The notes under the pieces: model-generated
Seen by the model: only the letters and a program-made list of their open reading frames with translations
Database searches by the model: none
What the model was told of the DNA's origin: nothing
Made by a program: the position numbers and the translations under genes
Shown here: one piece after another, positions 25,271 to 37,874 of the stretch
Position numbering within the stretch: the first letter of the stretch is position 1
Layout of the letters: every line of letters starts with the position of its first letter
Assembly: GCA_019752335.1 (NCBI GenBank)
Contig: JAIEMJ010000013.1
Span: forward strand, 124,001-188,000
DNA: 64,000 bases
Origin: Bryobacteraceae bacterium
GTDB taxonomy: Bacteria; Acidobacteriota; Terriglobia; Bryobacterales; Bryobacteraceae
Reading direction: 5' to 3'

Positions 25271-26866
25271 CTACCAGTGGCGGTCAATCCCGACGATTTC
25301 AGCCATCGAGTCGCTATTATCCTTGCGAATGGTGACGTCGACCGTCTGTGAAGGCCGTAGCGGATCGACGACGTGGGCGATCAAGTAACCTGTGTTTGGG
25401 GGAAGCACCGTCCCCGTTGCATCTTGAATCGGCTGCGAAGTCCCATATACGTTCGTGAGCGTCGACCAGTGGATCTCATAAGAAACCGGAGGTGCGAAGC
25501 CACTCACCGCCGAGAGGTCATCGAAGACCAACTTGCCCCCTACGATCCGGAACCGGTCCAGCGGCAGAAGCTTGGCGAACACAGCACGGCCAATCTTGTC
25601 GCGGCGCTCGATCAAGACCTGAGAGATCCAGTCGGTGGCTCGCGGGTCGGAGTAATGCGCGGATTCAACAATGGCGCGGATCTCTTCGTCGCGAATGGCC
25701 ATGATCTGCTTGGCGGCCCAAAATTCGTCGTCAGGTAGGCGATTCAAGAACGCCGGATTTGGGTATTCCGGCACCCAGTTATTCGCGTCGAACCGCTTAG
25801 ATTCAAATCTCCCAACTGCGGGAAGGTCGGAGAAATCCGCCCGCCCCCATCGCGGGACCAGTGCTCCAAGGGTGAGCAACTGAAGTGCGGGCGTCTTCCA
25901 GTCGAAGAGGTACTCGCCGCCCGACCTCGGACTATTTGCTTTCTGAGTCCCGCTGCCAAGGGTTGATCCCAAGTCGAGAACATAGTGCCGGATGAACTTA
26001 ACTGCATTCTCTTCGACGAGAGCGTCGTACGTATTGATGGCTCTCGAGTCGTCGTGACCGATCCACGCGGAGATCACGCCTAATCCGCGTAAGTCCCGGC
26101 GGTGTTCATGAGGAATGAAGTCATTCGGGTCGTCGGTGCGAACTCCGAAGTAGCGATAGGGGCCGATCCCTTTACCTGGAATTGCAAGACTGGCTGTCGC
26201 GCGATATTGGCCTCTCGCTGTTTTTGGAACCTTAAGCAGGAGTTCGTGCAAGTCGCGCCGCGTCATCGGCTGCGGATGTCCGAGCCTGTCGGCCACCGTC
26301 ACGTTCTTGCCAAGGGTGAGAATCTCCTCTGGAAACTCCACCAGGTAGTTCTCCGGCACGTGGTAACCGAGCGCATACATCAAGCGAATCGAAATATGAT
26401 CTGCTCCCGTGGCCATTCCCGGATTCGAGAGCGGATCGAATTTGACAAAGTACATGTCGTTCTTCGAATCGAGAATCACGAAACCCGGAGTGATCCCCTC
26501 GTTCTTGGCGCTGATCACCTTCCATTGGCCGCTCTGCGACGGCGGTCGATTGTTCCCCGGACCTGCGATCAACCGATCTTTCGTCATGGGATGGTAGTAG
26601 TGACGTTTGACCCACCAGGCGCCCTGCAGCGGCTCTCCAAGGGTGTTGACAGCCTGCGCCCGGGCCGGCTTCGCACGTTTCGCGTTGAGGTCGCCGGGCG
26701 TGTCTATGGTATGCCGGATGATGTCGTAGTAGTCGCTCAACTTTCGCTTCGCTGCCGCTTCGACGTTCAACGGCGTCAATTCAAATTCAAGCGGATCGTC
26801 CGGGTGAAACTGCTGCGCAGCGAGCCGGCAGGTCGTGATGAAAAATACAGTTAGATAGCGTTTCAT
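25271..26866 (-). CDS. secreted protein of unknown function with kinase-like motifs
   Basis: A 531-residue protein with a signal peptide ending near LAAQQ. I do not recognise a named family. The middle carries an ordered motif set resembling atypical kinases (HipA/FAM20-like): MYFVKFDP (Lys like the ATP-binding Lys), ATGADHISIRLMYALG (helix-C-like acidic residue), WIGHDDSRAINTYD (catalytic-loop-like HDD-N-D) and YVLDLGSTLG (DFG-like). The C-terminal 100 residues resemble a small beta domain. If it is a kinase, it would act outside the cytoplasm. It is the last of three tightly spaced genes with an Omp85-type barrel and a TLC-type nucleotide transporter. The kinase reading is inference; the motifs themselves are visible. 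Confidence 0.7.
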   Translation of the reverse strand: MKRYLTVFFITTCRLAAQQFHPDDPLEFELTPLNVEAAAKRKLSDYYDIIRHTIDTPGDLNAKRAKPARAQAVNTLGEPLQGAWWVKRHYYHPMTKDRLIAGPGNNRPPSQSGQWKVISAKNEGITPGFVILDSKNDMYFVKFDPLSNPGMATGADHISIRLMYALGYHVPENYLVEFPEEILTLGKNVTVADRLGHPQPMTRRDLHELLLKVPKTARGQYRATASLAIPGKGIGPYRYFGVRTDDPNDFIPHEHRRDLRGLGVISAWIGHDDSRAINTYDALVEENAVKFIRHYVLDLGSTLGSGTQKANSPRSGGEYLFDWKTPALQLLTLGALVPRWGRADFSDLPAVGRFESKRFDANNWVPEYPNPAFLNRLPDDEFWAAKQIMAIRDEEIRAIVESAHYSDPRATDWISQVLIERRDKIGRAVFAKLLPLDRFRIVGGKLVFDDLSAVSGFAPPVSYEIHWSTLTNVYGTSQPIQDATGTVLPPNTGYLIAHVVDPLRPSQTVDVTIRKDNSDSMAEIVGIDRHW

Positions 26867-26875
26867 TGGATCACC

Positions 26876-28111
26876 TCACCAAATGGGCTGCGAATCGACT
26901 GTTCCTAGAGGGCGTTGCTGAAACAGGTCGTTGAACCGGAACCACACCTGGAATCCCTCATGACTGAAGCCGACATCGAATCGCATGAACGTGCGATTGC
27001 GCGCATTGAATCGCAAGCCGACGCCAGCTGCGGTTTCGAGGTTGTTAAAATTCAATTGCCCGCGGCGATGGAACACTTTACCCGCATCCATGAACAGCGC
27101 ACCGTCACAGCCGGAAAAGAGGGCCCAGCGATATTCGGCGTTCAGAGCGAGGCTGTTGTTTCCAGAGAAACGAAACGGTCGAAAGCCGCGCAAATCGTCA
27201 GGACCGCCGGCGATGGGCTGGAGGTAGAACGGGACGCTTTGCCCACCCCGCGTATCGGTTAGTCTTGAATGGGCGCGGAGCGCGATGACGCGACTTTTGT
27301 TGAAGAACCCAACGTACTGCTGGAGGTCAATGTCCACGAGGTTGAAGTCGTGCAACCGGCGATCTTTATCCTCAAAGCGCGTGTACTGAATCGTGTAGTT
27401 GCCGCCTTGGCGTGGTCCAAAGGCGTCATCGCGCCAATCGAGTTGCGCGAACGTGCCGTAGCGCAAGAAGTTCGTCTGACGGTCCAGACCGGATACCTGG
27501 CTTGGGCTGAACGCAGTCGAGGTGAGAGCAAAACGGGTGTCCGTGCCTGGACCGGCGTTCACCGCCAGGTAACCAACGGCCCCACCCGTCTTGAGATGCC
27601 GTCCGAGGGAGATCGTTGCTTCGGTATCGATGGCTGTATCTTCCAAGCGGTAGTTGGTGCGAACCTTCTCGGACTCAGGCCCGGGGCCGTAATACTGGAG
27701 GCTGGCGTAGTTCTTGTAGATGCCGTTTACGTTGACCGATAAGCGCCCGGCCGCCAGGCGTGGCAGTGTTAAGGCAGCCTGTAGCTTCTGGTAATTGCGA
27801 GTGGAGATTTGCGCAGATGCCAACACACTGACCGCGCCGCGCTTCAAGTCGTCGCGAAGGTACTGCGGGCCGAACGCGAAGCCGCCGCCAGTGACCAGGC
27901 CCCCAATCTTGGCGCCGAGGCCGTTGTAGCCGAAGTTCAGTTTCTCGAGCAGCCTATCTTCGCGCACTCGCAGGAGGAACTCCTCGACGCCAGATCTGCG
28001 TTCCGGCCGGAGTTCCGCCAAGTGTGCCGAGCGTTGCTGCGTTAGTTCCGCCGTGCGGCTTTGCGCGGCGCAAACGAACGAAATAAACGGGACGAGCCAA
28101 AAGGTTCTCAT
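26876..28111 (-). CDS. Omp85/BamA-type outer-membrane barrel (surface antigen D15 domain)
   Basis: A 411-residue outer-membrane protein with a signal peptide (FWLVPFISFVCAAQS) and a barrel of the bacterial-surface-antigen superfamily. Blocks include FGYNGLGAKIGGLVTGGGFAFGP, QLDWRDDAFGPRQGGNY, RGGQSVPFYLQPIAGGPDDLRGF and FSGNNSLALNAEYRWALFSG, the last two matching the L6 loop and following strands of Omp85 proteins. It ends with GTVDSQPIW, where terminal W is typical of outer-membrane barrels. No POTRA domains are present, so it is a barrel-only member. It is 9 nt upstream of the kinase-like gene and 12 nt after the transporter gene. Confidence 0.85.
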   Translation of the reverse strand: MRTFWLVPFISFVCAAQSRTAELTQQRSAHLAELRPERRSGVEEFLLRVREDRLLEKLNFGYNGLGAKIGGLVTGGGFAFGPQYLRDDLKRGAVSVLASAQISTRNYQKLQAALTLPRLAAGRLSVNVNGIYKNYASLQYYGPGPESEKVRTNYRLEDTAIDTEATISLGRHLKTGGAVGYLAVNAGPGTDTRFALTSTAFSPSQVSGLDRQTNFLRYGTFAQLDWRDDAFGPRQGGNYTIQYTRFEDKDRRLHDFNLVDIDLQQYVGFFNKSRVIALRAHSRLTDTRGGQSVPFYLQPIAGGPDDLRGFRPFRFSGNNSLALNAEYRWALFSGCDGALFMDAGKVFHRRGQLNFNNLETAAGVGLRFNARNRTFMRFDVGFSHEGFQVWFRFNDLFQQRPLGTVDSQPIW

Positions 28112-28123
28112 CGTTGTCTCTCC

Positions 28124-29515
28124 TTAGTCGCCGCTCACTGTATTTGCGGGCAGGGGTACCGGCGTGAAGACACTTCGTGTCAGCAAGATCGTTACTCCCA
28201 GCCAGACGATTACGAACGCCATATTCGTCAGAGCAAAGTGGCGCGTGGTGAACGCCATTGATGTTCCGGCCCAAACGACTGCGGCCTGCGTTAGATCGCC
28301 GGTACGGTAGAAGAAAGTGTCAATCGCAGTCTTGGCCTTATATTTCGCCTCGCGACTGACCGGCAGAAACAAAGCGTGCCGCGCCGTGTTTTGGATCGAG
28401 TAATCCGTGGAATTTTCAAAAACCTTAGCTGTCATCGCAACGGTCAAGGCGGGCAGGATGGCCAGTAGCCCGTATCCACCGAGGGCGATCGCAGGTAGAA
28501 AGAAAAGCGCTCCCTGTACACCGACCCACCGAAACACGCGTGAGACGAGGAACGCCTGCAGTAACAGGCCTCCGATACCCACCCACGTGTAGTAGGTGCC
28601 GTAGAACTCTCCAATAAACGCCTGTTTGGCGGCTACTGGATCCACGGCCGTGGCGGCTATTTCCAATGCATTGGCGACGACAAGCTTGCTGAGCACGTAT
28701 TCGCCGCCCGTGTTGACCACATTCAGCAGCACAACCATCAATGCGATCAGACCCAGGTAGCGGTCGGACGCGACGATCTGAAACGCCCCTCGCGTGCCGA
28801 CTCCCGACTCGTTGTTCACCCGCTGCTGCTCGCACGCAGCACAGGCTGAACGGTTCGCTCGCCATGTGAAGAGTAGGCTGGCAAGAATGATCGCGCCGGA
28901 AAGGAGCAGAAGACTATCGACTCCCAGAGACTTGAAAAACACGGAAGCAATGCGCGCACCCGCAAGGGCGCCCAAGGAACTCCCGATGCCAAGGATCGGG
29001 AACAGCCGCTTGCCTTGTGCTTCCGTGTATAAATCATTGGCGAAGGCCCAGAACTGGGCCAATGCCATGAGGTTGAAAACTCCAAGCCACAGGTAGAACG
29101 GAATGCCGATAGGGATCCCGGCGCGGTTCAGGAAATAAAACACGGGAATGTTGGTGAGGAAAAATAGCATCACGGAGGCGATCAGCCGGAACCGCGTCAG
29201 CCGATTTGCGATCCAGCCGTACGCCGGAATCACCGCAAGCAAGACCAGAGCCTGCCCTGCCGCAGCGTAAGCCTTCACCTCCGCGCCGCCTTCTGCCAGG
29301 ATCAACGCCTCGCGCACCGTCTTGAGAATGTAGTAGGCCGTTAGGAGCAGGAATACATTCCCGGCTAACAGCAAGGCGCCCAAACCCTCGCCTGGCTCGA
29401 CCGTACTAAACAAACCCAACAGTCGGTCCGTGAGGCCCGCACCGAACCACTTGGACGATACAGGACCTGAGCCCAGTTTTCCATCGGTAACTGAAATTGA
29501 AACTGCCGGTGTCAT
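28124..29515 (-). CDS. ATP:ADP-antiporter-like (TLC family) transporter
   Basis: A 463-residue membrane protein with about 11-12 hydrophobic segments. It matches the TLC/Npt nucleotide-transporter branch of the MFS: LLTAYYILKTVREALILAEGG (the YYxLKTVREAL signature), FWAFANDLYTEAQGKRLFPILG, LGALAGARIAS and the C-terminal half NSTDYSIQNTARHALFLPVSREAKYKAKTAIDTFFYR-type block. Obligate intracellular bacteria use such proteins to import host ATP; free-living relatives are mostly uncharacterised. A nucleotide transporter next to a secreted kinase-like protein is a striking pairing. AGGGAG lies just upstream of the ATG at 29515. It is the first gene of the three-gene operon ending at 25271. Confidence 0.88.
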   Translation of the reverse strand: MTPAVSISVTDGKLGSGPVSSKWFGAGLTDRLLGLFSTVEPGEGLGALLLAGNVFLLLTAYYILKTVREALILAEGGAEVKAYAAAGQALVLLAVIPAYGWIANRLTRFRLIASVMLFFLTNIPVFYFLNRAGIPIGIPFYLWLGVFNLMALAQFWAFANDLYTEAQGKRLFPILGIGSSLGALAGARIASVFFKSLGVDSLLLLSGAIILASLLFTWRANRSACAACEQQRVNNESGVGTRGAFQIVASDRYLGLIALMVVLLNVVNTGGEYVLSKLVVANALEIAATAVDPVAAKQAFIGEFYGTYYTWVGIGGLLLQAFLVSRVFRWVGVQGALFFLPAIALGGYGLLAILPALTVAMTAKVFENSTDYSIQNTARHALFLPVSREAKYKAKTAIDTFFYRTGDLTQAAVVWAGTSMAFTTRHFALTNMAFVIVWLGVTILLTRSVFTPVPLPANTVSGD

Positions 29516-31704: not shown

Positions 31705-33369
31705 TCAGCGGTTCCGCATGTACTGCCGGATAAAATAGAGGACAATCGATCCTTCGCCCACGCTGTTCGCGACACGCCGGATCGCCGTATCGCGCACGTC
31801 GCCAATGGCAAAGACGCCCGGTACGCTAGTTTCGAGCAGGTACGGGCCGCGATTTGCGTCCCAAGTCGCCGGCCGTCGGCCTTCCCGGAAGAGGTTCTGT
31901 CCCGTTACGAGAAAACCATTGCGATCCCGGCATACAACCCCGTCGAGCCATTCTGTGTGAGGTTCGGCTCCGATAAAGACGAAGAGGGCGCCGGCCCGGA
32001 AGGTCTGAGGGACTCCGGTGTCGTAACGATATACATCGATCTCCTCCAGGCGATCTGCGCCTCGGACCTCCGTCACCTCGGCCTTCGGGATGACAGTGAT
32101 ATTCGGTATCGCGCGAATCCGCTCGGAAAGATAGTGCGACATCGACTTCGAGAGAGATTCCGCCCGAACGATCATAGTGACGGAGCGCGCTACCTCGGAA
32201 AAGTGGACCGCAGCTTGCCCGGCGGAATTGGCGCCGCCGACGATATAGACGTCTTCCCCCTTGCACGATGAAGATTCCGTGATCGCCGCTCCATAGTAGA
32301 CGCCGGCGCCTGTCAGGCGGTCCATGCCGGGCACGTCGAGCCTGCGCCACTGGACGCCTGAAGCGATGACCACGCTGTGCGCCGCAAGCTCCTGGCCGGT
32401 CGAGAGCTTTACGATTCGGTATTCCCCGCTGGCGCGCAATTCGATGGCCTCCGCCGGAGCGAGAACCTCCGTGCCGAATCTCTTCACTTGGGTCACGCCT
32501 CTTCGCGCGAGGTCCGAGCCACTCAGACCCGAAGGAAATCCCAGGTAGTTTTCGATGCGCGAGCTCAATCCGGCCTGGCCGCCCGCTGCCTCCTGCTCCA
32601 GGAGCACTGTTCGGAGCCCTTCGGTGCTGCAATACAGCGAGCACGCCAAGCCCGCGGGTCCTGCGCCCACGACGATCACGTCATAGATCCCTTCGCTGGG
32701 TGCGGTGACCAGTCCCAGTTTTACTGCAAGATCGGAAATGGAAGGCCGCTCCAGCACCATACCGTCGGTGAGCACCACCGCCGGCATCCGCGTACGATCA
32801 TTCACCGCCGCCTGGATGCGCGGATCCTCATCGGCGTCCGGTTCAAACCAGCGGTACGGGACCTGGCTCTTCGCCAGGAAGTCCTTCAAAGCATGCGTCT
32901 CCGGCGACCAGCGCGTCCCAACAACCAGGACGCCATCGAACGGCGCGGCGGCCGAAATGTGCCAATCCGCAAGCTGATCCTCCAGCACGGGATAAAGTCC
33001 ACTCTCTGGCGGCTCCCAGGGTTTCAAGAGATAGTGATGTAGGCGGACCCGATTGATGGCGTCGATCGCGGCGTTGGAGTCGGCGTATGCGGTCAGCAAT
33101 ACCCTTCGAGCGTCCGGTTGAAACGCGATCGTCTCTTGCAGAAATTCCGTCCCGCTCATCTTGGGCATGCGTTGATCCACCAGAAAGAGGGCGATGCGGT
33201 CGCCGCGGGCGGTCACCTGCCGCACCGTGTCGAGCGCCTTCAGTGGATCGTCCGATGTCAGTATGCGGTACTTCGAAGCGAATCGTGTGCGCAGGTCGCG
33301 CCCCACGGCTCGCAGCACGGAGGTGTCATCGTCCAACGCAAGAAGGTACGGTTTGCGAATCATTGCCAA
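31705..33369 (-). CDS. receiver domain fused to thioredoxin-reductase-like flavoprotein
   Basis: A 554-residue fusion. Residues 5-125 form a receiver with phosphoacceptor Asp65 in LFLVDQRMPKMSG. Residues 140-225 resemble a glutaredoxin-like domain (VLVVGTRWSPETHALKDFLA). Residues 228-554 form a thioredoxin-reductase-like flavoprotein with GAGPAG at 235-240 and a NADPH-loop-like GGANSAG at 378-384. The redox-active CxxC expected near residue 365 is absent: the segment GVYYGAAITESSSCK has a single Cys. It may therefore pass electrons to something other than thioredoxin. It is 2 nt upstream of the kinase gene and overlaps the end of the RND-outer-membrane-factor gene by 10 nt. Confidence 0.92.
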   Translation of the reverse strand: MAMIRKPYLLALDDDTSVLRAVGRDLRTRFASKYRILTSDDPLKALDTVRQVTARGDRIALFLVDQRMPKMSGTEFLQETIAFQPDARRVLLTAYADSNAAIDAINRVRLHHYLLKPWEPPESGLYPVLEDQLADWHISAAAPFDGVLVVGTRWSPETHALKDFLAKSQVPYRWFEPDADEDPRIQAAVNDRTRMPAVVLTDGMVLERPSISDLAVKLGLVTAPSEGIYDVIVVGAGPAGLACSLYCSTEGLRTVLLEQEAAGGQAGLSSRIENYLGFPSGLSGSDLARRGVTQVKRFGTEVLAPAEAIELRASGEYRIVKLSTGQELAAHSVVIASGVQWRRLDVPGMDRLTGAGVYYGAAITESSSCKGEDVYIVGGANSAGQAAVHFSEVARSVTMIVRAESLSKSMSHYLSERIRAIPNITVIPKAEVTEVRGADRLEEIDVYRYDTGVPQTFRAGALFVFIGAEPHTEWLDGVVCRDRNGFLVTGQNLFREGRRPATWDANRGPYLLETSVPGVFAIGDVRDTAIRRVANSVGEGSIVLYFIRQYMRNR

Positions 33370-36300
33370 CCTCCCCCCAGGGCGCGATAGAGACGCACGA
33401 TGGCAAGCAACTCCTCGCGCTGCACCTGCGCGACTGAGAGTTCACCCTCGAAGAGATTGCGTTCCGCGTCCAGGACCTGGAGGTAGCTGGTGACGCCTCC
33501 GTCGTAGAGCATTCGTGACAGCCGGTTGGTCTCGCGGAGCGCGGCTAGCAGTGCTTCTTGCTCCAGGCGCTGTTCGCGGACCTTCTGAATGCCAATCAAG
33601 GAATCCGCGGTCTCCCGGAGGGCGGTTTGAAAGGTGCGCTCAAACTCAATCGTTGCCAACTCCGCCCGAGCCCGGGCGCCTCGCACATTCGCGCGCAGGG
33701 CGCCGGAATTGAAAATCGGCATGGTCAACCCTGGGCCTAACTGATACTGGAGGGCGCGGTCGCTGATGAACCTCCCCAACGTCGCGCTCTCAAATCCGGC
33801 TGAGCCGGTGAGGAAGAACTGAGGGAATAGTTGTGCCTTGGCCACGCCGATGCGCGCGTTCGCGGCACGCAAAGTCGCTTCCGCCTGTTGCAAATCGGGC
33901 CGTCTTTCCAGAAGCGCACCAGGCATGCCCGCTGGCAGGGAGGGTGGCATGATTTGGCCAGTCAGTGTGCCGCGATTCAGAATCTCACCGGGATTGCGGG
34001 CGAGAAGCACGCTCAAAGCGTTCTCGATCAGACTCACTTGTTTCTCAAGGCTGGGTACTCTCAGCCCCGCGCTATGGACCAGATTCTCGGCCTGGCTGAC
34101 ATCCAATCCACTCGCAACGCCCCGTTCCCGCCGCTGGACAACCAACCGGAAGGACGCTCGGCGCGAGGCCAAAGTCTGTCTGGATATCTCCAACTCGCGA
34201 TCCAGCTCGACGAGTTGGAAATACGCAGAAGCGATTTCTGCCACCAAGGAAACCTGAACCGTACGCTGAGCCCACTCCTGGGCCAGCAGTTCGTTCCGCG
34301 CTGACTCTGTGAGCCGGCGGTAGCGGCCCCAAAAATCCAGTTGGAACGTCATATCCAACAAGGCACTGCCGAAAGTCACCTCCCGTGGGATGCCGGGTGG
34401 CAATGGGGTACCGCCGGCAGTGGCGATTTCGCGATTAGTCACGCCGGCGCGCCCGTTGATAAAAGGAAACTGGCCAGAGCGCACGACATCGACCTGCGAA
34501 CGGGCGTCCGCGATACGCTGCGCGGCGATTCTCAGGTCGTAGTTGCTCTTCAAACCCTCTTCGAGCAGGCGCTGGAGTGTTGGGTCTTTGAAGATTTCCG
34601 CCCACTTGAGGTCCCCTGTCGATGGACCATCCGCTGAAGCCGCATTGCGGAACTGTGTGGGAACGGGCAACGAAGGCTTCCGGTAGTTCGGCCCCACAAC
34701 GCATCCTTGCAGTAGGAGGGCCACGGCAAGGAGAGTTGCCGTTTGCGCCAAAGGCAGCACCCTGCGGCCTACCGCGCGATCTGCCAACATCTGGAACCAT
34801 TTGTAGAACACCGGGATGGTGAAGACGCCAAGGATCGTGGCGGCGAGCATACCCCCAAACACGGCGCTTCCGAGCGAACGACGGCTTGCCGATCCCGCAC
34901 CCTCTGCAACTACGAGTGGAACCACGCCGAGAATAAACGCGAAGCTTGTCATTAGAATGGGCCGGAATCGCAACCGTGCCGCTTCCAACGCCGCCTCTTC
35001 GGGGGACAGCCCTTCCTCGCGCCGTTGTCGTCCGAACTCGACAATGAGAATTGCGTTTTTTGCCGCCAGCCCGATTAACATGATCAGGCCAACCCGGCAG
35101 TAGACATCATCCGGGATCCCCCGGATCCATTCGGTGAAGATTGCACCAAGTACACCGGCGGGCACGCCGAGGAGCACGGCAATCGGAATGATCCAGCTCT
35201 CGTATTGCGCCGCAAGCAGCAACACCACCATCAACAATGCCAGCGCGAAGACACCCACACTGGACTGAGCCTTGGTCTCCTGGTAAGACATCCCGGTCCA
35301 CTCATATCCGAAGCCGCGAGGCAGCGTGCGGTCGGCAAGCTTCCCCGCGGCCTCAAGGGCTTGACCCGTCGAGAAGCCTGGCGCGGGTCCGCCAAGGATA
35401 TCCGCCGAACGGAACAGATTGAACCGCCCGACCGAGAGCGGACCATTGACGGGTTCGGTCTTGACCAGGACCGCCAGTGGAATCATGCTCCCCGTTGTCG
35501 ACCGGACATAGTAGCGCCCGATATCGCCTGGGTCGCGGCGGAACGTCTGCTCGGCTTGGGCGACCACGCGGTAGGTCCGGCCGAACATGTTGAAATCGTT
35601 CACATAGAGTCCGCCCAGGTACGTCTGCAGCGTTTGATACACCTCATTGAGCGGAACACCCATGGAGCGCACTCGCTCCCGATCTATTTGCAGCTTTAGT
35701 TGCGGTTCGTTGGGCACAAAAGTGGAAACAACTTGCGCAAACGTAGGTTCCTTCGAGGCGGCGGCCAGGAAGGTAGCGGTGGCCTTCGCGAGGTCTTCCA
35801 CGCTGCCGCCAGACCGATCCTGCAACTTCATTTGCAGGCCGCCCGTATTTCCCAGTCCTTGAATCGGCGGTGGATTAAAGACCAGAACCAGCGCGTCGTC
35901 CATCGCGAAGAGCCGCTGCTGCAGGGCCTGCACAATCGCGATTGTGTGCTCTTCGGGTTTGGTGCGTTCGCTCCACGGCTTCATCGATCCGATGACTGTG
36001 GCCAGGCTCGATGCGGCGTCCCCTTTGGCGAAGCTCGTACCACCGATGCTGATCGTGTTGGCTACTCCGGGCGTTTTACTGATGATCTCCGCCACCTTGT
36101 CGACAACCTTGTCGGTGCGCTCGAGCGATGCACCGTTGGGAAGCGAGATATCGACGATGAACCAGCCCTCGTCCTCGCTGGGCAGGAATCCCTTGGGGGT
36201 GACTTTATACAATTGCCACGTTCCGCCCAGCATTAGTGCGAGGAGGATGCCCACGATCGCCCCCCGGCGCAGGAGTGTCTGAACAACCCGGCTATAGCCG

Positions 36301-37874
36301 CCGAGCGTGCGATCAAACAGGGCGTTGAAGCCGCGAAATATCGCCGCTAGTGGACCGCTGCGTGAACCAGTCTCATGCTTCAACAGCAGCGCACACAGCG
36401 GCGGACTGAGAGTCAGGGCGTTGATCGCCGAAAGGACCACGGAGATTGCGATGGTGACGGCGAATTGGCGATACAGTTGGCCCGTAATTCCTGAAAGAAA
36501 CGCGACAGGTACAAAGACGGCCACCAGGATCAGCGCAATCGAAACGACGGCTCCGGAGACCTCTTCCATCGCCTTCAGTGCCGCGTCTCGAGGACTCAGT
36601 CCCCGGCGCATGTGATGTTCCACGGCCTCCACCACCACAATCGCGTCATCCACCACGATGCCGATCGCTAAGACCAGGCCGAACAGAGTGAGCACGTTTA
36701 CGGTGAATCCGAGCACGGGGAAGAACATGAACGTTCCGATGAGTGAGACCGGAACCGTGATCAAGGGAATCAGTGTCGCCCGCCAGCTCTGGAGAAACAC
36801 GAACACAACCAGAATGACCAACACAACCGCTTCCGCAAGTGTGCGAAGCACTTCACGGATCGAAGACCTCACGAACTGGGTGGAATCGTAGACTACCCGA
36901 TACCGAATGCCGGATGGAAACGAGGCGGCAGTGCGATTCATCTCCGCAGCTACCTCGTCCGCGACTTCCACTGCGTTGCTTCCCGGCAGTTGGTACAAGA
37001 GCAAAACGGTCGCCTGCTTGCCGTTGACCTTTGTGAACCTTGAATAGTCGAAAGCTCCCAGCTCCACCCTGCCAACGTCGCGCACCCGTACCGCCGATCC
37101 GTCGGAGTTCGAGCGTAGGATAATGTGCTGGAACTCGCCCGGGTTTTTCAGGCGGCCTTCGGTGCGAATCGTATACTCCATCTCCTGCCCAATAGCCGTG
37201 GGAGACTGTCCAATGCGTCCGGCGGCAGCCTGAAGATTCTGCTCGCGAATCGAAGACACCGCATCCGCGGCCGTCAGGCCGAGCTTGTACATCGAGTCTG
37301 GATTTAGCCAGACGCGCATTCCATATTCGCGCTCACCGGGCAGTTGAACGTCTCCGACGCCGCGGATTCGGGAAAGCCGATCCCGCACGTTGATCTTTGT
37401 GTAGTTGGACAGAAATAGTTCGTCGTAAGCACCATCCGGCGATTCCACGGCGAGCACGAGAAGCAAGGAAGTCGATTGCTTCCGGACGCTAATACCCTGA
37501 CGCCGAACTTCCTCCGGCAACTGCGGTTCGGCGAGCGCGATTCGATTCTGCACCTGCACCGCGGCGATATCGAGGTCGGTTCCTACTTCAAACGTGACTG
37601 TGATGTTGAGCCGTCCATCGTTGGTACTCTTGCTGTCGAAATAGAGCATTCTCTCCACGCCGTTCAGTTGTTGCTCGATTGGAGAAGCTACGGTTTCTTC
37701 CACGACGCGGGCGTCGGCGCCCAGGTAACGGGCGGATACGACGACGGTGGGCGGCGTGATGTCAGGATAACGGTCGATCGGAAGGCCTACCAGCGTCACG
37801 AGTCCGATCACGGTGATTAAGACCGAGATTACGCTGGCGAAGACCGGGCGGTCGATGAAGAAGCGCGAAATCAC
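33360..37874 (-). CDS. RND efflux pump fused in frame to outer-membrane factor (or overlapping genes)
   Basis: An uninterrupted 1504-codon frame. Residues 1-1028 form an HAE1-type RND pump of normal length (starts MISRFFIDRPVFASVISVLI; proton-relay region GIVVDDAIVVVE; TM4 block GIRYRVVYDSTQF). Residues 1029-1504 form a NodT/OprM-type outer-membrane factor of normal length, starting MLADRAVGRR, then a hydrophobic stretch and a lipobox LLQGC. Normally these are two genes. If the fusion is real, the lipobox sits inside the chain. An ATG at 34790 could instead start the lipoprotein separately; the sequence GGTTCCAG before it is a poor ribosome site. The gene overlaps the adaptor gene by 4 nt and the next gene by 10 nt. 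Confidence 0.85.
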   Translation of the reverse strand: MISRFFIDRPVFASVISVLITVIGLVTLVGLPIDRYPDITPPTVVVSARYLGADARVVEETVASPIEQQLNGVERMLYFDSKSTNDGRLNITVTFEVGTDLDIAAVQVQNRIALAEPQLPEEVRRQGISVRKQSTSLLLVLAVESPDGAYDELFLSNYTKINVRDRLSRIRGVGDVQLPGEREYGMRVWLNPDSMYKLGLTAADAVSSIREQNLQAAAGRIGQSPTAIGQEMEYTIRTEGRLKNPGEFQHIILRSNSDGSAVRVRDVGRVELGAFDYSRFTKVNGKQATVLLLYQLPGSNAVEVADEVAAEMNRTAASFPSGIRYRVVYDSTQFVRSSIREVLRTLAEAVVLVILVVFVFLQSWRATLIPLITVPVSLIGTFMFFPVLGFTVNVLTLFGLVLAIGIVVDDAIVVVEAVEHHMRRGLSPRDAALKAMEEVSGAVVSIALILVAVFVPVAFLSGITGQLYRQFAVTIAISVVLSAINALTLSPPLCALLLKHETGSRSGPLAAIFRGFNALFDRTLGGYSRVVQTLLRRGAIVGILLALMLGGTWQLYKVTPKGFLPSEDEGWFIVDISLPNGASLERTDKVVDKVAEIISKTPGVANTISIGGTSFAKGDAASSLATVIGSMKPWSERTKPEEHTIAIVQALQQRLFAMDDALVLVFNPPPIQGLGNTGGLQMKLQDRSGGSVEDLAKATATFLAAASKEPTFAQVVSTFVPNEPQLKLQIDRERVRSMGVPLNEVYQTLQTYLGGLYVNDFNMFGRTYRVVAQAEQTFRRDPGDIGRYYVRSTTGSMIPLAVLVKTEPVNGPLSVGRFNLFRSADILGGPAPGFSTGQALEAAGKLADRTLPRGFGYEWTGMSYQETKAQSSVGVFALALLMVVLLLAAQYESWIIPIAVLLGVPAGVLGAIFTEWIRGIPDDVYCRVGLIMLIGLAAKNAILIVEFGRQRREEGLSPEEAALEAARLRFRPILMTSFAFILGVVPLVVAEGAGSASRRSLGSAVFGGMLAATILGVFTIPVFYKWFQMLADRAVGRRVLPLAQTATLLAVALLLQGCVVGPNYRKPSLPVPTQFRNAASADGPSTGDLKWAEIFKDPTLQRLLEEGLKSNYDLRIAAQRIADARSQVDVVRSGQFPFINGRAGVTNREIATAGGTPLPPGIPREVTFGSALLDMTFQLDFWGRYRRLTESARNELLAQEWAQRTVQVSLVAEIASAYFQLVELDRELEISRQTLASRRASFRLVVQRRERGVASGLDVSQAENLVHSAGLRVPSLEKQVSLIENALSVLLARNPGEILNRGTLTGQIMPPSLPAGMPGALLERRPDLQQAEATLRAANARIGVAKAQLFPQFFLTGSAGFESATLGRFISDRALQYQLGPGLTMPIFNSGALRANVRGARARAELATIEFERTFQTALRETADSLIGIQKVREQRLEQEALLAALRETNRLSRMLYDGGVTSYLQVLDAERNLFEGELSVAQVQREELLAIVRLYRALGGGWQ

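Follow-up and report, generated by a model that had tools for sequence, protein, structure and literature searches.

A conserved pair of an Omp85-type barrel and a probably exported kinase-fold protein, often accompanied by an ATP/ADP-type transporter gene

We analysed a 64,000-nt stretch of the genome of a Bryobacteraceae bacterium (assembly GCA_019752335.1, contig JAIEMJ010000013.1, positions 124,001 to 188,000; hereafter the window) and focused on three adjacent genes on its minus strand. In their reading order, these encode a TLC-family transporter, an Omp85-type barrel and a kinase-like protein (the 25271 protein), separated by gaps of 12 and 9 nt (Table 1). The positions, strand and gaps agreed with an earlier note on this DNA, which had proposed that the trio is an envelope phosphorylation system supplied with nucleotides by the transporter. 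Shine-Dalgarno-like stretches 5' of all three starts, and signal-peptide-like hydrophobic N-termini on the barrel and the kinase-like protein, were recognised by eye; the N-terminus of the latter closes in ..RLAAQ. The motifs that the note had singled out in the 25271 protein, FVKFDP, GHDDSRAINTYD and VLDLGSTLG, are present and are conserved among its homologues. The flanking genes that were scanned encode an isochorismatase-type protein and an alpha/beta hydrolase, and suggested no link to the trio.

Homologues were gathered with the kinase-like protein alone as query. Counting the query genomes, the gene was found in 50 of 297 genomes of the window's phylum, in 13 of 41 genomes comprising the window's own and its close relatives, in 15 of 82 genomes from the phylum to which a KSB1 record belongs and in 3 of 150 from that of a Chitinivibrionales record. 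Among the 69 kinase genes of the first set, a same-strand barrel gene lay no more than 400 nt upstream in 67; in L035 the distance was 430 nt, and the contig of L081 ends 137 nt upstream of the kinase gene, so that the barrel was present in 68 of 68 cases with room for it. The second set came from other phyla and, one repeated locus excepted, was not used in building the search models; three of its 34 examined genes stand at contig ends, and all 31 with at least 900 nt upstream had the barrel within 500 nt (30 of 30 without the repeated locus). Over both sets, which cover Acidobacteria, KSB1 and others, the barrel gene immediately preceded the kinase gene in all 98 distinct cases whose upstream sequence was long enough, indicating that the arrangement in the window is not a chance observation. 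The window's own genome holds two more kinase-like copies (65 and 50% identity), and its three such barrel genes (E ≤1e-5) each adjoin one of its three kinase genes. These results place the barrel-kinase pair at the core of the system, with the transporter as a frequent addition only.

We then compared barrel and kinase distances in the 22 genomes that carry several pairs (49 pairs). The distances were correlated with r 0.89, whereas r was 0.50, with an SD of 0.056, when barrels were shuffled among the pairs of each genome, and none of 2000 shuffles reached 0.89, indicating that the two genes travel and diverge together, which does not by itself prove contact between their products. L264, the same locus as L039, was dropped from the residue, distance and transporter-flank counts, and two pieces of L062 were excluded throughout. 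In L071, L246, L247 and L248, two barrel-kinase pairs lie near each other on one contig and strand. A phage or plasmid origin was rejected, since none of 37 pattern-matching stretches from a pattern search of viral contigs was confirmed as a relative and no relative was present among 72,556 plasmid records.

The barrel protein matched Pfam Omp85 (8.7e-14, 52.2 bits against a cut-off of 24), in line with the family assigned to it previously. Its AlphaFold2 (AF2) model had a predicted local distance difference test (pLDDT) score of 90.7 and 16 strands; only helices (residues 19-59) stand ahead of the first strand, so the description of the barrel as lacking POTRA domains holds for the model. The nearest solved structures by Foldseek were the TamA and BamA barrels (E ~1e-12). 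An RGF/RGY loop is a hallmark of the Omp85 superfamily, and the protein shares the LRGF loop, the 16-stranded barrel and the Pfam match with TamA, BamA and TpsB; it differs from them in its POTRA-less model and in the constant pairing of its gene with one soluble protein. This pairing could reflect two-partner secretion, with the barrel as a dedicated translocator to the surface or the outside, external targets for the secreted partner, and another task for the neighbouring transporter. The constant order of barrel and then exported protein resembles two-partner and patatin-type systems, and TamA and BamA as nearest folds fit such a role. However, translocating TpsB barrels have POTRA domains, which the model lacks, and the transporter linkage described below would be left unexplained; we regard this explanation as improbable.

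To compare the fold of the 25271 protein with FAM20C and HipA, as the earlier note had advised, we modelled the 531-aa protein with AF2 from a 62-sequence alignment. This alignment (A1) comprised 62 of the 69 first-set proteins, omitting five C-terminally extended members, L048 and one of two L071 genes. The model had a mean pLDDT of 93.3 and a predicted template modelling score (pTM) of 0.93. The top solved structures by Foldseek were CtkA of Helicobacter (E 2.2e-4) and the Golgi casein kinase of Fam20 type (4kqa, E 4.5e-4). VIA-align was run on Foldseek's candidates, and its matched rows mostly cover residues 31-433. It gave Z 14.8 for CtkA (231 residues, root-mean-square deviation (rmsd) 4.3), Z 14.3 for DrFam20C1 (5yh0; 255 residues, rmsd 3.8), Z 13.3 for the type II phosphatidylinositol 4-kinase PI4KII-alpha (241 residues, rmsd 4.4), Z 12.3 for CotH (234 residues, rmsd 4.2) and Z 12.3 for 7vkb, a bacterial kinase complex (203 residues, rmsd 3.2); the last is a Legionella HipA-type kinase according to PMC9758233. 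Because the structure compared is a predicted model and identities are 8-15%, these rows indicate fold and not function and leave room for other folds. The 25271 protein is thus predicted to have an atypical kinase fold of the HipA/FAM20/PI4KII/CotH group.

At the sequence level, the 25271 protein had no Pfam match above cut-off, the sole hit below it being HipA_2 (E 0.2, 11.3 bits against 27). Among the 62 aligned members, HipA_2 was matched at E ≤0.1 by 18 (best 5.8e-4) and HipA_C by 3 (best 8.1e-5); these members matched six Pfam families at that threshold, and FAM20C was not one of them. A PDB profile search with the kinase alignment returned no match at E ≤10. The profile was also compared with that of nine HipA_2 proteins of relatives (A3; 9 of 24 fetched HipA_2 loci, those whose usual N-terminus was caught by a simple frame rule). 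This comparison gave P 2.2e-5 and a probability of 76.5, placing K142 on their Lys and position 156 on their Glu, which is invariant in the nine; Trp-Asp-Arg stretches aligned as well. An ordinary HipA toxin was rejected, as the Pfam cut-off was missed and no antitoxin family appeared in the recurring neighbour clusters, nor in the 25 neighbour families that were listed (of 89 and 86). A hydrophobic N-terminus was present in 61 of 69 kinase-fold proteins, with starts chosen by us, and the 25271 protein is probably exported.

We then located the candidate catalytic residues in the model. The strands at 115-120, 128-132 and 138-143 (with K142) are followed by a helix at 151-165 that carries residue 156, a helix at 257-269, a loop with D273 and N278, and D298. 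With a Lys on a strand, an acid on the following helix, a catalytic Asp five residues before an Asn and a DFG-like Asp, this is the element order of a kinase. HipA has the same spacing between Asp and Asn, with D309 as its catalytic Asp (a D309Q mutant appears in PDB titles). The Lys and Asp motifs were kept by most homologues (Table 1), all 69 first-set proteins being included in these counts, and K142, D273, N278 and D298 occurred together in 83 of 102. Chance motifs were rejected as an explanation, since homologues down to ~30% identity keep them. The acid at 156 was gone in 9 of the 13 members without K142, compared with 9 of the 89 that bear it, so the two tend to disappear together, as expected for a working nucleotide site. 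A subgroup (L082, L083, L084, L086) lacks both K142 and the 156 acid and retains D273, N278 and D298, possibly with an altered nucleotide site. Five members (L054, L057, L058, L088, L097) have C-terminal extensions of ~420-610 aa with a common ADIDVDY..ALFNGHLT..ANSDVRAG-like stretch and no Pfam match; K142 is missing in 5 of 5 and D273 also in 4 of 5.

The most invariant stretch of the family starts immediately ahead of the helix preceding the catalytic loop and extends into that helix. Its residues R243, D246, N248, D249, R257 and R260 were invariant in 102 of 102 homologues, and together with H253 they were jointly present in 101. This R-DD-ND-H-R-R signature is not known from kinases, although no motif-database search was made for it. 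It may serve substrate binding, active-site shaping or docking to the barrel. Such invariance raises the possibility that the kinase fold has been reused, the protein being an exported pseudokinase or another ATP-dependent transferase whose real working or docking site, for barrel or substrate, is the signature. The loss of K142 in 13 homologues and of D273 in 9 favours this, as do the five extended members and the retention of both signature and barrel by members without several kinase residues. The 83 homologues with all four catalytic residues and the joint loss of K142 and the 156 acid speak against it, and we consider a reused fold rather unlikely.

Table 1. Position and basis of the genes and of the candidate functional features in the window.
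Feature	Position in window	Strand	Basis or conservation
TLC-family (NTT, ATP:ADP-antiporter-like) inner-membrane transporter, 463 aa, gene 1	28124..29515	-	Pfam TLC; aligns to 9j3j
Omp85-superfamily 16-stranded barrel without POTRA, 411 aa, gene 2	26876..28111	-	Pfam Omp85, AF2, Foldseek
Barrel loop with LRGF stretch, residues 302-315	27167..27208	-	G302, R308 and R314 invariant in 57-sequence alignment (A2)
Kinase-fold protein, probably exported, 531 aa, gene 3	25271..26866	-	AF2, Foldseek, VIA-align
K142 (FVKFDP), end of third N-lobe strand (138-143), candidate ATP-binding Lys	26441..26443	-	K in 89/102 homologues
D156, helix after Lys strand, candidate salt-bridge partner of K142	26399..26401	-	Acidic (Glu/Asp) in 84/102
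Family signature R243-x-DD-x-ND-x3-H-E-x-RR-x2-R260, most invariant stretch	26087..26140	-	Alignment of 102 homologues
Catalytic-loop candidate W268..GHDDSRAIN278 (D273, N278)	26033..26065	-	D273 in 93/102, N278 in 97/102
Metal-binding motif candidate D298-L-G-S-T-L-G304 (DFG equivalent)	25955..25975	-	D298 in 99/102
C-terminal beta-rich region, residues 434-531, past kinase fold	25274..25567	-	DSSP of model; barely covered by structure comparison

The transporter matched Pfam TLC (2.1e-13, 50.4 bits against a cut-off of 21), again as the note had assigned it, and aligned to the structure of chloroplast ADP,ATP carrier 1 (9j3j, E 1.6e-9); the cut-off of the NCBIfam model TIGR00769 (NTP/NDP exchange transporter) was missed (53.1 against 387.2 bits). 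The window's own genome had only two TLC genes (E ≤0.001), both beside barrel-kinase pairs: one before the barrel, in the window, and one after the kinase gene, in C2. A Pfam TLC family search across the phylum misses the window's own gene, and a protein search was therefore used for the phylum-wide counts. Close relatives (E ≤1e-60, a cut that leaves out G237 at 1.7e-60) were present in 17 of 50 kinase-bearing genomes and in 11 of 247 others (Fisher p 3e-8, kinship uncorrected); at E ≤1e-40 the numbers were 20 of 50 and 39 of 247 (p 3e-4), and in 12 of the 20 genomes with both genes the two lay within ~4 kb. In the second set, a TLC match was found within 4 kb of 16 of 34 kinase genes. Around the 44 units with long flanks, there were 19 TLC genes (E ≤1e-80) at no more than 1 kb from the barrel-kinase unit (16 on the same strand), 4 at 1-2 kb, 5 at 2-4 kb and 1 beyond 4 kb, the last bin being shortened by flanks that stop at ~5.5-8 kb. 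One of nine apparently upstream cases counted at E ≤1e-20, L040, seems to be an artefact of overlapping alignments. Single-domain and HEAT-fused TLC forms both stand beside the pair, and TLC is the commonest third gene there. These counts show a linkage between transporter and pair far in excess of chance; TLC genes that stand apart from any kinase gene are also common.

Some loci depart from this layout. In G250, an Omp85 barrel gene comes straight after a TLC gene (L177:7002-9781) with no kinase-fold gene beside them, a barrel-kinase pair being elsewhere in that genome. In L085:5399-7939, TLC and Omp85 barrel share a single open frame and are separated by a signal-peptide-like stretch; either the fusion is true or a stop is missing from the draft genome. 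L044, L046 and L078 have an opposite-strand gene pair near the kinase unit; one gene encodes a distant TLC-like protein of 700-750 aa, and the other belongs to a cluster in which Pfam identifies the L078 member as a Hanks-type Ser/Thr kinase.

We also scanned the neighbours of the pair, taken as the longest open frames, some of which are not real genes. The downstream set (A5) held 67 same-strand neighbours, namely 66 of 71 plus the PAP2-cluster gene L082:5650-6462 added by hand, and the upstream set (A4) held 55 of 60; we omitted ten neighbours from the two sets. The two commonest downstream families were Metallophos (calcineurin-like phosphoesterase, 6) and PAP2 (5), and one 5'-nucleotidase domain was found. 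Pfam assigns L037 and L051, the scanned genes of the PAP2 cluster, to PAP2; members of this cluster directly follow the kinase gene in L051, L052, L085 and L092 and precede the barrel in L037. Upstream, sensor-kinase domains occurred in up to 5 neighbours and other families were scattered. The neighbouring phosphatases favour a reversible phosphate on an envelope molecule and, together with the likeness to PI4KII, would favour a lipid or glycan target. The Metallophos, PAP2 and 5'-nucleotidase genes would also suit nucleotide or phosphate salvage, in which the transporter imports, the phosphatases process and the kinase-fold protein binds or senses; characterised parasite NTT proteins do import nucleotides, as PMC5381601 states. 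The conserved catalytic residues speak against salvage, as does the lack of any nucleoside uptake family in the recurring clusters or the same 25 listed families, and we find it very improbable.

We propose, at a probability of about 0.5, that the operon specifies an extracytoplasmic phosphotransferase associated with the outer membrane, to which the transporter, where one is present, supplies nucleotides. In this proposal, the 25271 protein, exported to judge from its N-terminus and folded as predicted, would have its own Omp85 barrel as a partner at the outer membrane; the most likely task of the barrel is to dock or position it there or to pass it across, physical contact being suggested by the constant pairing. 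A nucleotide would be the phosphate donor and a component of the envelope the acceptor; the neighbouring PAP2 and calcineurin-like phosphatase genes and the likeness to PI4KII and Fam20 make a lipid or glycan head group likelier as target than a protein. Since ATP is assumed to be absent from the periplasm, an exported kinase would depend on a supply of nucleotides; the TLC transporter, judged from its linkage, may send out ATP from the cytoplasm in exchange for ADP of the periplasm, or exchange a similar pair.

Several results weigh against this reading. At least one of the four catalytic residues is missing in 19 of 102 homologues, and the best conserved stretch is the signature, not a classical kinase motif, which survives where K142 and D273 are lost. 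Export is judged from N-terminal hydrophobicity. As for the transporter, 39 of 59 TLC-bearing genomes (E ≤1e-40) have no kinase gene, and of the 57 units flanked by 4 kb on either side, 24 lack any TLC match there at E ≤1e-20, a cut whose counts include distant proteins (the only such protein scanned, from L046, does not match Pfam TLC). The catalytic set was intact in 32 of 39 members with TLC and in 23 of 28 without (p 1.0), or in 39 of 46 and 19 of 24 with a looser TLC cut (p 0.74), so that a requirement of TLC for an active kinase was not supported. Joint inheritance alone could yield both the linkage and the parallel distances. The envelope phosphorylation with nucleotide supply suggested by the earlier note was borne out in part. 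It withstood both refuting conditions that the note had set, the predicted fold being kinase-like and the Lys and Asp motifs being kept in most homologues, and the transporter linkage supports it; the lack of a tie between TLC and an intact catalytic set, the TLC-bearing genomes without a kinase gene and the persistence of the signature where kinase residues are lost weigh against a simple version.

The proposed system resembles several known ones without coinciding with any of them. HipA-like kinases (Pfam HipA_2 PF20613 and HipA_C PF07804; CtkA, HipT) gave the best fold matches and a weak sequence likeness, whereas the window protein is below the Pfam cut-off, probably exported and ~530 aa long, with an extra C-terminal beta region, its own R-DD-ND-H-R-R stretch and an Omp85 barrel partner. 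The animal secretory-pathway kinases of the FAM20 family are alike in fold, in working outside the cytosol and in the DFG-like Asp motif; they differ in identity (8-13% in structural alignments), in location (Golgi, not a bacterial envelope) and in giving no sequence-profile match. Type II phosphatidylinositol 4-kinases and the CotH spore-coat kinase are alike in fold, but have no sequence match, another location and other partners. Background on Fam20 and novel bacterial kinase families is given in PMC7948968 and PMC9758233. The NTT/TLC proteins of free-living bacteria (Major et al. 2017, PMC5381601, consulted in part) have Pfam TLC in common with the window protein, which is below the TIGR00769 cut-off. 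According to that portion of the paper, NTT genes are widespread in free-living bacteria, with HEAT fusions and adjacent cyclic-nucleotide-binding genes, and the functions of these forms are unknown; the words "kinase" and "outer membrane" are absent from its main text. In the open literature (titles and abstract starts, without preprints and most subscription papers), we found no description of an Omp85 barrel paired with a kinase fold, nor of a periplasmic kinase fed by a nucleotide transporter.

Elsewhere in the window, positions 33360-37874 on the minus strand hold a single open frame of 1504 aa, which runs from an RND efflux pump into an outer-membrane-factor-like lipoprotein part (..LLQGCVVGPNYRKP..) and looks like a pump fused to its exit duct (families named by eye).

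The spread of the barrel-kinase pair over several phyla, often with an ATP/ADP-type transporter gene, suggests a chemical tagging system outside the cytoplasm. The combination of a conserved, probably exported kinase fold, a barrel and such a transporter makes the question of the nucleotide source directly testable. More tentatively, in some free-living diderms an inner-membrane ATP/ADP exchanger might power an outer-membrane-bound kinase that phosphorylates the envelope, with phosphatases reversing the modification, which would make the system a bacterial counterpart of the Golgi secretory kinases. If this possibility is true, the NTT genes of free-living bacteria would gain their first role, and a POTRA-less Omp85 barrel would gain a role as well.

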